Assembly: GCA_019694855.1 (NCBI GenBank)
Contig: JAIBBD010000009.1
Span: 1-51,805 of the forward strand
Direction of reading: 5' to 3'
DNA from: Dehalococcoidia bacterium
Lineage (GTDB): Bacteria; Chloroflexota; Dehalococcoidia; UBA2979
DNA: 51,805 nt
How positions within the stretch are numbered: the stretch's first letter is position 1; every line of letters starts with the position of its first letter. The notes beneath the pieces were generated by a model. It searched no databases and was not told the DNA's origin. It worked only from the letters and a program-made list of their open reading frames with translations. Below are positions 9,978-17,091 of this stretch, one piece after another. The translations under genes were made by a program, and so were the position numbers.

Positions 9978-11198
9978 ATGAACCGCTCTTTCGACGCGCC
10001 CGGCACGACACCGGCGCACGACGACTTCGCGCTCGCGAACCGGGCGACGCCGCTGACTCCGGTCATCGCGGCCGAGATCGCGGAACGCGGGCCGATGACC
10101 TTTGCGCGCTTCATGTCGCTGGCCCTCGGGCATCCCGAGCACGGGTACTACAGCCGGCCGGACCTCGCGTGGGGCGCGGCCGGCGACTTCGAGACGTCGC
10201 CCGAGGTGCACCCGGTGTTCGGGTACCTCTGGGCGCGACAGATCCTCGAGTGCTGGGAGCGGCTGGGACGGCCGGCGGAGTTCGCGCTGGTGGAGCCGGG
10301 CGCCGGTTCGGGCGCGTTTGCCGTCGCGATCCTCACCTGGCTGCGCGAGCGCGCGCCGGAGTGCGCCGCCGCCGCGCGCCCGGTGATTCTCGACGGCCAT
10401 CCGCGGCGCGTCGAGCATCAGCGCGCGCGCCTGCGCGCGCGAGGGCTCGAGGCGAAGCACGCTCTGCTGGAGGAGTGGCTCGCGCGCGATGAGCATGTCA
10501 CCGGCGTCGTCATCAGCAACGAACTGTTCGACGCGCTGCCCGTGCACCTCGTGGAGCGGCGCGAGGGCGCGTTGCACGAGTGGTACGTGGCCGCGGGAGC
10601 GGATGGCGCGTTCGTCCTCGAGCCGGGCCCCACGAGCACGGCGGACCTCGAGGCGCATTTCGAGCGGCTGCGCATCTGGCCGGGGGAGGAGTGCCGGGCC
10701 GAGGTCTCGCTGGCCGCGCCGCAGCTGATGCGCGCCCTGGCGGGACGCCTCGAGCGGGGGTACGTGCTAACGATCGACTACGGCTACGAAGCGGAGCTGC
10801 TGTACGCCTCCTGGCGGCGGATGGGGACGCTGATGGCGTTCCGCCACCACAGCCCGCAGCCGGACCCGCTGGCGCTGCCCGGGCTGACGGATCTCACCGC
10901 GCACGTCGACTTCACCTCGCTGGCGGGGGCGGGAGCCGAGGCCGGCTTTGAGCCGGCGCCGCTCGTCTCACAGGCCGAGGCGCTGATGGCTCTTGGCATC
11001 GGCGAGGCGCTCGAGGCCGCACGGGCACGCGCCGCCGAGGACTTCGCCGCCTTCGCAAGCGCTCGGCGAGCGGCAGAGACGCTGCTCGACCCCGCCGGCC
11101 TCGGCCGCATCCGCGTGCTGGCAATGGCGAAGGGCGCGCCCCTCGAGGGGCTGGCGTGCCTGCGCAGCCCGGAGGGCTACCGGGCCGCCTCGAGGTAG
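9978..11198 (+). CDS. SAM-dependent methyltransferase, MidA/NDUFAF7 family
   Basis: A 406-residue protein of the MidA/NDUFAF7 family. In mitochondria the homologue dimethylates an arginine of a complex I subunit. Visible: PMTFARFMSLALGHPEHGYY (about 38-57), GAAGDFETSPEV, the SAM-binding VEPGAGSGAFA near 110, NELFDALPVH and TIDYGYEAE. Length is normal. Leaderless-type start. A NuoI/NuoG-like pair lies 3-7 kb downstream, which is suggestive given the family's link to complex I, but the pair is not a full complex I. The 3' end overlaps the convergent SRPBCC gene by 22 bp. Confidence 0.9.
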   Translation: MNRSFDAPGTTPAHDDFALANRATPLTPVIAAEIAERGPMTFARFMSLALGHPEHGYYSRPDLAWGAAGDFETSPEVHPVFGYLWARQILECWERLGRPAEFALVEPGAGSGAFAVAILTWLRERAPECAAAARPVILDGHPRRVEHQRARLRARGLEAKHALLEEWLARDEHVTGVVISNELFDALPVHLVERREGALHEWYVAAGADGAFVLEPGPTSTADLEAHFERLRIWPGEECRAEVSLAAPQLMRALAGRLERGYVLTIDYGYEAELLYASWRRMGTLMAFRHHSPQPDPLALPGLTDLTAHVDFTSLAGAGAEAGFEPAPLVSQAEALMALGIGEALEAARARAAEDFAAFASARRAAETLLDPAGLGRIRVLAMAKGAPLEGLACLRSPEGYRAASR

Positions 11199-12039: not shown

Positions 12040-12426
12040 ATGGCTCCCGAGTACTACAGCGCGACCCTGATCGACCATTTCGAACATCCTCGCAACGCCG
12101 GCGCGATGGAGGACGCGGACGCCGAGGCGTACGTCGTGAATCCCGTCTGCGGCGACTCGCTGCGCCTGTTCCTCAAGATTGAGGACGACCGCGTCCAGCG
12201 CGCCTCGTTCCTGACCTCGGGCTGTCCCGCCTCGATCGCCACCTCCTCGGCGGCGACCGAGATGCTGGCGGGCCGGAGCCTCGAGGACGCCGAGGCGCTG
12301 ACCCGCGACGACTACGCGGAGGCGGTCGGCGGGCTGCCGAAATCGAAGGTGCACTGCTCGGTGCTCGCCGCCTCGGCGGTGCGCCAGGCGATCGGCGAGT
12401 GGCGCAAGCAGCGGGCGGCGGTTTAG
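12040..12426 (+). CDS. IscU/NifU-type iron-sulfur cluster scaffold
   Basis: A 128-residue scaffold protein on which [2Fe-2S] or [4Fe-4S] clusters are built before transfer. The three cluster cysteines are in place: NPVCGD (Cys37), SGCPAS (Cys65) and HCSVLA (Cys108). The N-terminus YSATLIDHFEHPRNAG is typical. Leaderless-type start. It heads a rightward run that ends with the cluster-rich NuoI- and NuoG-like proteins, for which it may supply clusters. No cysteine desulfurase lies nearby. Confidence 0.92.
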   Translation: MAPEYYSATLIDHFEHPRNAGAMEDADAEAYVVNPVCGDSLRLFLKIEDDRVQRASFLTSGCPASIATSSAATEMLAGRSLEDAEALTRDDYAEAVGGLPKSKVHCSVLAASAVRQAIGEWRKQRAAV

Positions 12427-12435
12427 TCTCCGAGC

Positions 12436-13059
12436 ATGACGGTCGCCGCGCTCATCCTCGCCGCCGGCGCTTCGAGGCGTATGGGCCGCCCGAAGGGGCT
12501 GTTGCCCTGGGGCGACCGTTCGCTGCTCGCCTGGGAAGTCGATGAGCTGATGCGCTCCTCGGTGGACGACATCGTGGTGGTCCTCGGACATCACGCCGAG
12601 GACGTGCGGCGCTCGCTTGGCGACGGCGCGCGGTATTGCGTCTTCAACCAGCGCTGGCCGCAGGGCCGCGCGACGTCCCTGTCGAAGGGCGCGAAGGCGC
12701 TCGTCGCCGGCGGCCGCGCCGCGCCCGAGGCGATCGTGATCCAGAACGTCGACCAGCCGACGCGCGCCGACATCATCGACCGCCTCGTCGCCGAGCTGCG
12801 CAGCAGCGGCGCTGAGGTGGTGCAGCCCTCGTACCGCGGGAAGCCCGGGCATCCGGTCGTCCTCAGCGGCGCGCTGATCGACGAGCTGATCGGGGCCACC
12901 GAGGCGACCTTCGGCCTGCGTTCCGTCCTCGAACGGCACGCCGCGCACCTCGTCGCGATGGATGACGAGCCGGTGGTGCGCATCGACCTCGACACGCCGG
13001 ACACCCTCGACGAGGGGCGGCGGCTGCTCGGGGTCGCAGGTGTGGCGACGAACAGCTGA
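12436..13059 (+). CDS. MocA/MobA-like nucleotidyltransferase
   Basis: A 207-residue NTP transferase. LILAAGASRRMGRPKGLLPW (6-25) is the nucleotide-binding loop of the CTP:molybdopterin cytidylyltransferase group; QNVDQPTRAD and GKPGHPVVLS follow in the expected order. It would attach CMP to molybdopterin, a cofactor form used by xanthine-oxidase-type enzymes, none of which is in the window. A TAGTCT box overlaps the preceding TAG stop with 6 bases to the ATG, so it may have its own leaderless transcript. A different NTP transfer role cannot be excluded. Confidence 0.82.
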   Translation: MTVAALILAAGASRRMGRPKGLLPWGDRSLLAWEVDELMRSSVDDIVVVLGHHAEDVRRSLGDGARYCVFNQRWPQGRATSLSKGAKALVAGGRAAPEAIVIQNVDQPTRADIIDRLVAELRSSGAEVVQPSYRGKPGHPVVLSGALIDELIGATEATFGLRSVLERHAAHLVAMDDEPVVRIDLDTPDTLDEGRRLLGVAGVATNS

Positions 13060-13061
13060 GC

Positions 13062-13778
13062 TTGCGGCTCGACTGCCTGGGGTCCGGCAACGCGTTTTCG
13101 TTCGGGCGGTACTGGAGCGGTTTCCTCCTCGACCGGCACATCCTCCTCGACTGCCCGCCGCAGACGCTGCCGCACCTGTTCCAGCTCGGCGTGCCGTCCG
13201 AGGAGATCGACCTCATGCTGCTGTCCCACGCGCACAGCGACCACATCGGCGGGGTCGACCTCTTCCTTCTCGACGCCGTCTACCGCACCTGGCCGCGGCG
13301 CACGCGGCCGCTCGCCGTCGGCGGGCCGCCCGGCATCTACGACCGGCTGCGCGAGGTGATCGGAGAGTCGGAGCGACTGCCGCCTCGCGACGACACACGC
13401 ATCACCTGGTTCGAGGGCGGTGACGGCGCCTCATTCGAGTGGGCGGGCGCGACGGTCGAGTGCTTCGAGGTGGAGCACGACCCCGCACTCACCTCGCTGG
13501 GATTCCGGGTGCACGCGGGCGGCTCGGTGGTCGCGTACAGCGGCGACACGAGGCCATGTGCCGCGGTGGAGCGACTGGCCGAAGGCGCGGACCTGCTCGT
13601 GCTCGAGTGCGGCGTGGGGACGTACCACTTCGACTGGCCCGACGTGCTGGCGCTCCGGTCGCGGCTGCCAGCGAGCACGGAGATCGTCGTCACGCACTAC
13701 CCGGATGAGGGCGCGGACGCGGTGCGAGGCGTGCCGGGGGTGCGGCTGGCCGAGGACTTCGGGATGTACGAGGCGTGA
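13062..13778 (+). CDS. Metallo-beta-lactamase fold hydrolase (RNase Z-like group)
   Basis: A 238-residue MBL-fold protein. The metal motif HAHSDH (about 56-61) is intact, later ligands appear in YSGDTRP and VVTHYPDEG, and the GSGNAF opening is like RNase Z and arylsulfatase-type members. The exosite arm of true RNase Z is absent, so tRNA 3' processing is not implied. The TTG start lies 2 nt after the MocA-like stop, so the two are probably coupled. Confidence 0.88.
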   Translation: MRLDCLGSGNAFSFGRYWSGFLLDRHILLDCPPQTLPHLFQLGVPSEEIDLMLLSHAHSDHIGGVDLFLLDAVYRTWPRRTRPLAVGGPPGIYDRLREVIGESERLPPRDDTRITWFEGGDGASFEWAGATVECFEVEHDPALTSLGFRVHAGGSVVAYSGDTRPCAAVERLAEGADLLVLECGVGTYHFDWPDVLALRSRLPASTEIVVTHYPDEGADAVRGVPGVRLAEDFGMYEA

Positions 13779-13923
13779 GTGTGGGATTTTCGTAACCGCT
13801 GCTTCGCGAACGGCGGCTGAACCCCTCGTTCGTGCTACGATTCACATGGCGTGGCGGGGGTGTCCCTTATCTCCTCGTCCGCTATGCTCCGCGACGCACA
13901 CGTTCGGGGGAGACGAGGCTGCC

Positions 13924-14484
13924 GTGGCGTACGGTGCGGGCATCGCCCGAGGCCTGCTGGTCACCTTCAAGCACATTTTCAAGCCCCCTGTCACCGTCAA
14001 CTATCCCGAGGAGACGCGACAGGTGCCGGTGCGCGCGCGCACGAACCTACTCTGGTTCGAGGAGCGCTGCACGGGCTGCTCCACGTGCGCGCAAGCGTGC
14101 CCGGACGGATGCATCCTCGTGCAGACCTCGCCACGCGGTGACGGCACGCTGAACATCGACCGCTATGAGATCGACTTCCGCATCTGCATGTACTGCGGGC
14201 TGTGCACCGAGGCGTGCCCGTACCAGGCGATCCAGGCGGGCGGGCGCTACAACGACGCCGTGTATGTCTTCGAGAACATGTACCGCAACCGCGAGGCGCT
14301 GACGCGCGAGGCGAAGGCGTACATGGAGCAGACCGGCGGGCGCTACCCGAACGGGCAGCTGCAGGAGCTCGCCCCGCCTCGGACGGCGATGCCGACCGCA
14401 CGCAGCCGCGTGCAGACGGCGGGGAGCGACGGGCCGTACGGCCCCCAGCACCTGCCGAGCCGGCAAGACCGCAACGGCAGCTGA
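13924..14484 (+). CDS. NuoI-like 2[4Fe-4S] ferredoxin subunit
   Basis: A 186-residue protein like subunit I of NADH-quinone oxidoreductase. An N-terminal membrane-associating helix (GLLVTFKHIFKPPVTVNYPEE, about 10-30) is the NuoI hallmark, followed by clusters C49/52/55/59 and C88/91/94/98. The C-terminal tail is long and polar. The GTG start follows GAGG; -10-like boxes lie at 13836 (TACGAT) and 13884 (TATGCT). Next gene is NuoG-like, 42 nt away. Other complex I subunits are absent here, so this may be a stand-alone electron module. Confidence 0.88.
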   Translation: MAYGAGIARGLLVTFKHIFKPPVTVNYPEETRQVPVRARTNLLWFEERCTGCSTCAQACPDGCILVQTSPRGDGTLNIDRYEIDFRICMYCGLCTEACPYQAIQAGGRYNDAVYVFENMYRNREALTREAKAYMEQTGGRYPNGQLQELAPPRTAMPTARSRVQTAGSDGPYGPQHLPSRQDRNGS

Positions 14485-14526: not shown

Positions 14527-17091
14527 GTGGCCAAGATCACCATCAATGGCACGGAAGTCGAGGCGGAGGCCGGACGCCGGCTGGTCGAGGTGATCAAGGA
14601 GCAGGGGATCCGGATCACGAACCTCTGCTACATCGACGGCCTCGAACCGTATGCCGGCTGCCGCACCTGCCTCGTCGACATCGAGGGCGGGCGCCCGACG
14701 AGCATCCAGCTCTCCTGCACCGCGCAGGTCGCCGAGGGCATGGTGGTGCGCACCGACACTCCCGAGGTGAAGCGCGCGCGCCAGGGCGTGATGTCGCTGA
14801 TCATGGCGAACCACCCCGACCGCTGCCTCACCTGTCACCGCCGCGTGCACTGCCAGCCCGGCGAGATCTGCCTGCGCGACGATGTCGTGACTCACCGCTG
14901 CCTGACGTGCTCAAAGAACTACCGCTGCGAGCTCCAGACCTCGACTGAGATGATCGACATGGGCGAGTACGAGGAGCCCTGGGTCGGCGAGGTGCGCTCG
15001 TACTACGAGACCCCGCCCCCCGAACCCGACCGCGCGAACCCCTACCTCGAGTTCGACCCGCAGATGTGCATCATCTGCACGCGCTGCGTGCGCGCCTGCG
15101 CGGACATCCGGCACACGGGCGCGATCACGCTGTCGGGCAAGGGTTCGTCGACCGCGATCGCGTTCGGCACCGGCGGCCCCGTACATGAGTCGAACTGCGA
15201 CTTCTGCGGCGCCTGCATCGATGTCTGCCCCACGGCGACCCTCATGGAGAAGCCGAACAAGTGGGTGGGGCTCGCCGAGGAGTGGACCAACTCAACCTGC
15301 AACTCGTGCTCCGTCGGCTGCACGATCTCGTACGGCGTCGCCAATGACCGCCCGGTGATCGTGCGACCCGACCGGCTGAACCAGTTCAGCCGCGACCAGA
15401 TTTGCGTACGGGGCCGCTTCCACTACGACGCCGTCGCGGAGAACCAGCGCCTCAGCCGGTCGCTGGCGCGGCGTGGCGAACGGCTGCTGCCGGTGCCCGC
15501 TGACGAGGCGCTGGCGGAGGCCGCGCGGCTCCTCGATGGCGTACGACGCGAGCACGGCGGCGGAGCGATCGCGGTGCTCGGCTCCCCGCTCGCGACGAAC
15601 GAGGAGGCATACCTCCTCGCGCGCATCGCGCGGGACGTCCTCCAGACCCCGCACATCGACTTCTCGCACGGCTCGATCCACCGCGCGGTGCAGGGCGCGA
15701 TTCACGATGCCCTCGGCGTCGACCGGCTGCCTTCGGACCTCACGAGCGTCGAGACGGCGGAGACGATCGTCGTGCTCGCGAGCGACCTCGAGGAGTCGCA
15801 CAACGTCGCGGCCCTCCGCATCAAGGACGCGGTCGTGAAGCGCGGTGCGCGCCTCGTGGTCGTGAGCCCGCGGTGGGGCGAGCTGGTGCCATTCGCCGCG
15901 GCCTGGCTGCAGCCGTCGCCCGGCTTCGAAGCGGCGGCGGTGCAGGCGCTGGTGCGCGCGATCGCTTCGGACGCCTCGCAGCTCGGCGAGCCGGTCGTAC
16001 CGCGCGGCGTGACCGCCTCGTCGCTCGAGAGCGCGGTCGAGGTCGTGCGCGCCGCCGCTGCGAGCGACAAGGGCTTCGCGGTCGTCTACGCGCCGAACCC
16101 GGTGGACGCCGCGGCGGCCGGTGACCAGGCGCGCGCGTGCGCGAACCTCGCGATCGCGGCGCGCGGCCAGGCTGCGGCTTCGTCTCTGCACTACCTGCCG
16201 ACGGACGCGAACGTCCTCGGCATCTCCGACATGGGCGTCGGGCCCGCCGCCAACGGGATGGCGTTCTCGCAGATCATCGAGGCGGCGCGCGACGGCCGCA
16301 TCAAGGCGCTGCTCATCCACGACGACAACCCGCTGTTGAACGGCGCCGGGAGCGACGACATCCGCGCGGCCCTCGAGGCGGCGCAGCTCGTCGTAATCGA
16401 TTCGGTGCGCTCGACGACCGCCGAGCTGGCGGAGGTGGTACTGGCCGAGCTGCCGTTCTTCGCGAAGGACGGCACGATCACCAACGCGGACCGGCGCATC
16501 AACCGCCAGCGGCCCGCCGGCGTGCCGCGTCGCGAGGAGCGCGACGGCGTCGCGCTGCTGACCGCGCTGGCGAACGAGCTCGGCGGGAACTTCGCGTATG
16601 CCGACGCCGCGGCGGTGACGGCCGAGGCCGCCTCGAAGGTCGCGGGCTATCTGCCATACGAGCAGGTCCGCTCGGGCCGATCGCGGGCCGTGGGCGCCGA
16701 GGCCACCACCCAGCCGCGGTTGCAGGCCATCGGCGCGCCGGCGGCGCCCGAGGGCGACGGGCTGCGGCTCGTCGTCGCGCGGTCGCTGTACACGACGTGG
16801 GAGGGCGCCTCGATGCGCTCCGAGGAAGCCGACAAGATGCACCGCGAGGAAGTGGCGACGCTCAACCCTCGCGACGCGGAGGCGGCGGGCGTGCGCTCGG
16901 GCGACGCGGTCGTGCTCACGGACGGCACCCACGAGGTAAGCGTCAGCGTACGGCTCGATGACGGCGTGGCGCCGGGGACGGTGTATGTGCCGCACTACTA
17001 CGACGGCGGCGCGGTGATGTCGTTGCTCCCGCTCGAGGGCACGGCGGCGGCCTCGGTCACGGTTGCCGTGCGGGCGTTGCAGCTGGCGTAG
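14527..17091 (+). CDS. NuoG-like iron-sulfur/molybdopterin-fold protein
   Basis: An 854-residue protein of the NuoG/formate dehydrogenase superfamily. Domains: [2Fe-2S] ferredoxin (C34, C45, C48, C64); His-Cys cluster H96, C100, C103, C109; a second CLTC-x5-C copy (C125, C128, C134) preceded by C115 and H123; two [4Fe-4S] motifs (C181/184/187/191, C224/227/230/234); the molybdopterin-type cluster C258/261/265/293; then the large molybdopterin-fold body and a C-terminal beta-barrel domain. At the place where formate dehydrogenases carry Cys or Sec there is Ile384 (SHGSIH), so no molybdenum ligand is seen. It probably conducts electrons, not formate chemistry. GTG start. Confidence 0.87.
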   Translation: MAKITINGTEVEAEAGRRLVEVIKEQGIRITNLCYIDGLEPYAGCRTCLVDIEGGRPTSIQLSCTAQVAEGMVVRTDTPEVKRARQGVMSLIMANHPDRCLTCHRRVHCQPGEICLRDDVVTHRCLTCSKNYRCELQTSTEMIDMGEYEEPWVGEVRSYYETPPPEPDRANPYLEFDPQMCIICTRCVRACADIRHTGAITLSGKGSSTAIAFGTGGPVHESNCDFCGACIDVCPTATLMEKPNKWVGLAEEWTNSTCNSCSVGCTISYGVANDRPVIVRPDRLNQFSRDQICVRGRFHYDAVAENQRLSRSLARRGERLLPVPADEALAEAARLLDGVRREHGGGAIAVLGSPLATNEEAYLLARIARDVLQTPHIDFSHGSIHRAVQGAIHDALGVDRLPSDLTSVETAETIVVLASDLEESHNVAALRIKDAVVKRGARLVVVSPRWGELVPFAAAWLQPSPGFEAAAVQALVRAIASDASQLGEPVVPRGVTASSLESAVEVVRAAAASDKGFAVVYAPNPVDAAAAGDQARACANLAIAARGQAAASSLHYLPTDANVLGISDMGVGPAANGMAFSQIIEAARDGRIKALLIHDDNPLLNGAGSDDIRAALEAAQLVVIDSVRSTTAELAEVVLAELPFFAKDGTITNADRRINRQRPAGVPRREERDGVALLTALANELGGNFAYADAAAVTAEAASKVAGYLPYEQVRSGRSRAVGAEATTQPRLQAIGAPAAPEGDGLRLVVARSLYTTWEGASMRSEEADKMHREEVATLNPRDAEAAGVRSGDAVVLTDGTHEVSVSVRLDDGVAPGTVYVPHYYDGGAVMSLLPLEGTAAASVTVAVRALQLA

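Follow-up and report, generated by a model that had tools for sequence, protein, structure and literature searches.

A divergent NuoG-type subunit with a doubled cysteine motif and its likely place in a dispersed second complex I of a Dehalococcoidia bacterium

In complex I, N5 is the final cluster of NuoG ahead of NuoI, and to our knowledge the cluster set of the complex is treated as fixed except for the off-path N7. NuoG and NuoI themselves are already known. Canonical NuoG/Nqo3 (PDB 8e9g, 7awt and 4hea) shares with the NuoG described here its fold, the N1b, N5, N4 and N7 ligand sets and the lack of a molybdenum ligand, but our protein has a 25-residue, four-cysteine insert in the N5 loop and its gene lies outside the main nuo operon. 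Its closest PDB relatives by sequence and fold are the alpha subunits of NAD-dependent formate dehydrogenase (FDH; FdsA/FdhA, PDB 6tg9, 9ktl and 7vw6), which have the same domain order with two [4Fe-4S] sets after N5, but differ from it by a Cys/Sec molybdenum ligand, the lysine of a CVKG motif and, in the PDB forms, a single His-Cys3 motif. A further group, double-motif FDH-like proteins of Chloroflexota (L040-L048, L054 and G218; also L003-L010), shows the same seven-cysteine motif and spacing; however, where neighbours were checked, these are partnered by NuoE and NuoF and not by NuoI, several are catalytic (Cys/Sec), and residue 123 is not a histidine.

An 11-subunit complex I is known from Dehalococcoides and others (PMC11238625). 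The complex of this type in the genome studied here (complex I-1) has its own NuoB and NuoI and no NuoE, NuoF or NuoG, whereas a second one (complex I-2) would take B, I, E, F and G from elsewhere. A modified complex I and a contig with fdhA-nuoG-hoxF-hoxE have been described in a Chloroflexi MAG (PMC7117926). Our searches of a collection of open-access papers turned up neither the additional cysteines nor a complex I gene set dispersed over four places. Here, we analysed a stretch of 51,805 nucleotides of Dehalococcoidia DNA (contig JAIBBD010000009.1, hereafter the window), which encodes a NuoI-NuoG pair.

The NuoI-NuoG pair and its cluster sites

13924-14484, + strand: NuoI-type 2x[4Fe-4S] subunit (NuoI2), 186 aa, second NuoI of the genome (TIGR01971, PDB matches)
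14527-17091, + strand: NuoG-type subunit with FDH-alpha/NuoG fold, non-catalytic, 854 aa (Pfam/NCBIfam domains, fold match, tree)
14626-14718, + strand: [2Fe-2S] N1b-type ligands C34, C45, C48 and C64 (invariant in alignments; Pfam Fer2_4)
15067-15228, + strand: two [4Fe-4S] ligand sets among C181, C184, C187, C191 and C224, C227, C230, C234 (Pfam Fer4_7/Fer4_Nqo3; position table)
15298-15405, + strand: N7-type/Mo-proximal [4Fe-4S] ligands C258, C261, C265 and C293, followed by Arg295 (Pfam Molybdop_Fe4S4)

The open reading frame 14527-17091 begins with GTG, contains no in-frame stops and is the only NuoG-like gene of the source genome. Its domain order, as in FDH alpha and NuoG, is a [2Fe-2S] domain, a His-Cys loop, two [4Fe-4S] sets, a Mo-proximal/N7 [4Fe-4S] set and a molybdopterin-type fold. 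All ligand sets of complex I NuoG (N1b, N5, N4 and N7) were found in the position table, and the sets between C181 and C234 are of the FDH type, N4 included. Against the NuoG model TIGR01973 the protein scores 252.9 bits, below the cut-off of 470.05; since this cut-off is a naming threshold, we file the protein as a divergent NuoG-type subunit.

The claimed pairing with a NuoI-like gene was borne out at 13924-14484, directly upstream. This gene also starts with GTG, and a longer mechanical reading frame (13420-14484) runs into the preceding gene. NuoI2 matches TIGR01971 with an E value of 3.4e-30 and 104.1 bits, slightly below the cut-off of 113.05, carries two CxxCxxCxxxCP motifs and finds complex I NuoI/TYKY in the PDB. 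NifU-like, MobA-like and metallo-beta-lactamase genes lie 5' of it, while a DUF4440/SnoaL gene and a Lon-domain gene lie 3' of NuoG. The NifU/IscU-like and MobA-like genes (12040-13059 in the window) also precede NuoI-NuoG in nine loci of relatives from the same family (L149, L156, L157, L159, L163, L165, L171, L174 and L176), possibly linking the pair to Fe-S assembly.

15676-15678, + strand: codon of Ile384, the residue that stands in place of the Mo/W-binding Cys/Sec (alignment, position table)

The original prediction placed Ile384 at the Cys/Sec position of formate dehydrogenases and regarded the molybdopterin fold as non-catalytic, and we agree on both points. The equivalent residue is Val in four and Phe in one of five tabulated orthologs, and the FDH lysine of CVKG is replaced by Arg295, within a CVRGRF or CVRGRY string in the clade members matched by pattern (L189 was not matched). 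A catalytic FDH was thus rejected, as both the metal ligand and the conserved lysine are lost. Catalytic double-motif relatives have Cys at the metal-ligand position; in L008 and in the protein of G218 this position is an in-frame TGA, read as Sec.

The doubled motif and its insert

14812-14928, + strand: double cluster motif H96-C134 with His and seven Cys, compared with His and three Cys in single-motif relatives (computed positions, alignments)
14833-14907, + strand: 25-residue insert with four extra Cys, about residues 103-127, edges ambiguous (alignments against single-motif relatives)

The nine residues named in the original prediction (H96, C100, C103, C109, C115, H123, C125, C128 and C134) were all computed at those positions, and the motif reads H96-x3-C100-x2-C103-x5-C109-x5-C115-x9-C125-x2-C128-x5-C134-ELQ. 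The solved relatives have H-x3-C-x2-C-x5-C, with which the double-motif profile aligns in two stretches separated by a gap; likewise, Pfam NADH-G_4Fe-4S_3 (PF10588) matches our protein in two stretches. From H96 to the last cysteine the distance is 38 residues, as compared to 13 in the solved relatives, which leaves 25 additional residues, exactly four of them cysteines, and in a 47-row alignment the segment between C100-L-T and C128 is absent from single-motif dehydrogenases. None of the five PDB profile-search alignments that we examined contained both motif copies, and the remaining matches were known single-motif families.

Is the doubled motif a peculiarity of this gene? A search pattern that placed no constraint on residues 115 and 123 picked up 51 loci of the NuoI-linked clade of orthologs, a few of them from one and the same genome, with 23 distinct motif strings, and 20 further FDH-like loci, for which residue counts were read from the list of motif strings. 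Two NuoI-linked loci were left out of the motif reading, one because its sequence ends before the motif (L160) and one because its stretch holds no NuoG (L202). Residue 115 is Cys and the spacing is constant in all 71 matched loci, which rules out a chance origin. The double motif is therefore not peculiar to the window gene but standard in its clade and in a wider FDH-like family. All seven cysteines and both histidines (H96 and H123) are kept in 51 of 51 NuoI-linked loci; in the FDH-like loci the seven cysteines and H96 are kept in 20 of 20, whereas His at residue 123 occurs in none. We thus rejected H123 as a general ligand: being conserved in the NuoI-linked clade only, it is a weaker candidate than C115.

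Variants of the motif occur elsewhere. In four distant loci (L053, L060, L061 and L064; Planctomycete, unassigned, Bacteroidales and Coatesbacteria) the double motif lacks C115 and has only three extra cysteines, and in L053, L060 and L064 NuoF adjoins the gene. In a groundwater genome (L039, 10001-12449) a frame change close to position 11040 seems to break NuoG in two, which may be a sequencing error or a pseudogene.

H96 and the seven cysteines together make up the count for two full [4Fe-4S] ligand sets. Since the insert adds exactly four invariant cysteines, and with H96 eight potential ligands are at hand, we consider one extra cluster, as originally predicted, the most likely reading of the motif. 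Judged from sequence, the NuoG of the window would quite likely hold such an extra Fe-S cluster, and the insert probably accommodates one iron-sulfur cluster beyond those present in any complex I of known structure.

AlphaFold2 modelled the whole protein with a mean pLDDT of 82 and a pTM of 0.85, and the PDB entries that this model matched best were alpha subunits of FDH and NuoG from bacterial complex I. Within the insert the pLDDT was below 50 at residues 104-108 and 110-127; a second model of residues 1-250, built from double-motif rows only, was poorer as a whole (mean pLDDT 56) and no better in the insert.

Two complex I gene sets in one genome

The original prediction had noted no other complex I subunit beside the pair. 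This holds within the window but not for the genome, where the suggested search for further nuo genes found two complex I sets outside the window. The source genome (G000) encodes NuoH, NuoB and NuoI twice each, and NuoF and a NuoG-like protein once each. Complex I-1, on contig C99, comprises 11 genes (A-B-C-D-H-I-J-K-L-M-N). Complex I-2, on contig C32, runs A-C-D-H-J-K-L up to the contig end; in three relatives (G146, G201 and G202) it is complete as A-C-D-H-J-K-L-M-N, without B, I, E, F and G. As the source contig stops after NuoL, M2 and N2 are seen in relatives only. The second NuoB (NuoB2), on contig C118, keeps the CC...C...C ligands of N2, NuoE and NuoF are adjacent on C116, and NuoI and NuoG are the window pair. 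At its C terminus the sole NuoF (L036; G000:C116:7992-10031) is extended by a ferredoxin-like part that contains Cys motifs, a feature of HydB/FdhB-type subunits.

In the single-contig genome G337, complex I-1 is located around 0.90 Mb and complex I-2 around 2.04 Mb, with E-F about 11 kb from NuoA of complex I-2, while the I-G pair is at 2.42 Mb; G254 has the same arrangement of E-F and complex I-2. Because single-contig genomes show the same split, contig fragmentation does not explain the dispersal, and an assembly artefact is ruled out. In other families than that of the source genome, NuoB2, NuoI2 and NuoG are linked: they are directly consecutive in L189 and L203, one small gene stands between NuoB2 and NuoI2 in L204, and one reverse-strand gene between NuoI2 and NuoG in L195 and L196. 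Since NuoB belongs to the core of the quinone module, this linkage ties the NuoI2-NuoG pair to complex I. Instead of the isolated pair of the original prediction, the two genes most likely encode NuoI and NuoG of a complex I with dispersed genes. In many genomes of the class complex I seems to lack subunits, as its genes are spread over four places, and recognition of this split offers a route to its complete annotation.

In another genome (G218:C50, L209-L210), a double-motif formate dehydrogenase of the selenocysteine type, accompanied by NuoE and NuoF, adjoins the 11-gene complex I, which is suggestive of an electron donor to that complex.

Proposed enzyme, rival readings and ancestry

We propose that the window pair forms the NuoI and NuoG of a second, dispersed NADH:quinone oxidoreductase of the 14-subunit type with an extra [4Fe-4S] cluster near N5, an assignment that we regard as likely when taken as a whole; that this NuoG is a complex I subunit we hold to be very likely. 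Its gene set would lie in four places, with A-C-D-H-J-K-L in one (M-N being past the contig end) and B, I-G and E-F in the other three, and as the genes are not in one operon, we infer their co-assembly into one complex. Electrons from NADH would enter at FMN/N3 in NuoF, pass through N1b, N4 and N5, all three in the NuoG of the window, continue over N6a/N6b in NuoI2 and N2 in NuoB2 and reach quinone, and this transfer would drive the membrane subunits. The insert lies in the N5 (His-Cys3) loop, and its extra [4Fe-4S] would sit near N5, at the NuoI-facing end of NuoG, where it could serve as an additional step or as an N7-like side store. A place on the main electron path rather than on a side branch we consider somewhat less likely than not. 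If the proposal is true, a conserved site beside N5, at the step from NuoG to NuoI, would offer a natural test of rate-limiting electron hops and of the descent of the NADH module from formate-dehydrogenase-like proteins.

The same NuoG could belong to complex I with its ordinary N5 cluster only, if the four extra cysteines bound zinc or were structural. Indeed, the spacing C-x5-C-x9-C-x2-C also fits a zinc site, AlphaFold2 leaves the insert unresolved, and the distant relatives with three extra cysteines would be compatible with such a role. However, the extra cysteines are interspersed in a loop that binds Fe-S, within a protein rich in such sites, each half of the motif looks like a CxxCx5C cluster motif, and H96 with the seven cysteines gives exactly two cluster sets, so that we consider a zinc or structural role unlikely. 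We give considerably less weight to a soluble module that works on its own as an electron carrier or diaphorase, e.g. with NuoEF, outside the membrane complex: the membrane-subunit genes are indeed far from NuoI2-NuoG, and a nuoEFG operon annotated in Desulfitobacterium hafniense has been re-annotated as a soluble FDH (PMC11238625), but the pair exactly complements a complex I cluster without B and I, NuoB2 as a core Q-module subunit adjoins it in relatives, canonical NuoG is its sister in the tree and the FDH active-site residues are absent. That the protein is a formate dehydrogenase or another Mo/W enzyme whose metal ligand is atypical is hardly credible; although FDH alpha subunits are its best PDB matches in sequence and fold and some double-motif relatives have Cys or Sec, Ile, Val or Phe occupies the Cys/Sec position, Arg replaces the conserved Lys, the molybdopterin fold is shortened (854 versus about 940 aa) and the gene is linked to NuoI/NuoB.

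How widely is the proposed complex I subunit pair distributed, and where does its insert come from? Comparison of the window NuoI across 393 genomes of the class gave identities of 70-85% in its own family and 57-75% in other families (about 90 rows), followed by a gap to at most 49%. Among the genomes listed, 40 of 44 of its own family have a NuoI2 ortholog, and a double-motif NuoG adjoins the ortholog in nearly all loci examined (exceptions L160 and L202). A plasmid search returned distant NuoG/FDH matches only.

In a tree of 48 sequences, from which the double motif had been cut out, the NuoI-linked NuoG clade was monophyletic (support 100/100) and sister to four canonical Chloroflexota NuoG (100/99), thus grouping with NuoG and not with FDH. 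Single-motif dehydrogenases were placed among double-motif ones, and a single clade of all double-motif proteins was rejected by the AU test (p-AU 0.0116), so that the insert was gained or lost more than once. The spacing and flanking residues common to double-motif proteins make loss the likelier direction, a reading weakened by long branches and by the lack of a root in the tree. FDH-like relatives without NuoI carry the same insert, which therefore did not arise for NuoI alone.

A still wider proposal is that an extra [4Fe-4S] lies on the main path from N5 to N6a in a wide Chloroflexota group, the insert being ancestral to NuoG and NAD-linked FDH and later lost; we find this rather improbable. 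An ancestral insert would make ordinary complex I a reduced form. On one contig (L057, 10001-17296), a double-motif and a single-motif NuoG/FDH-like gene flank NuoE-NuoF.
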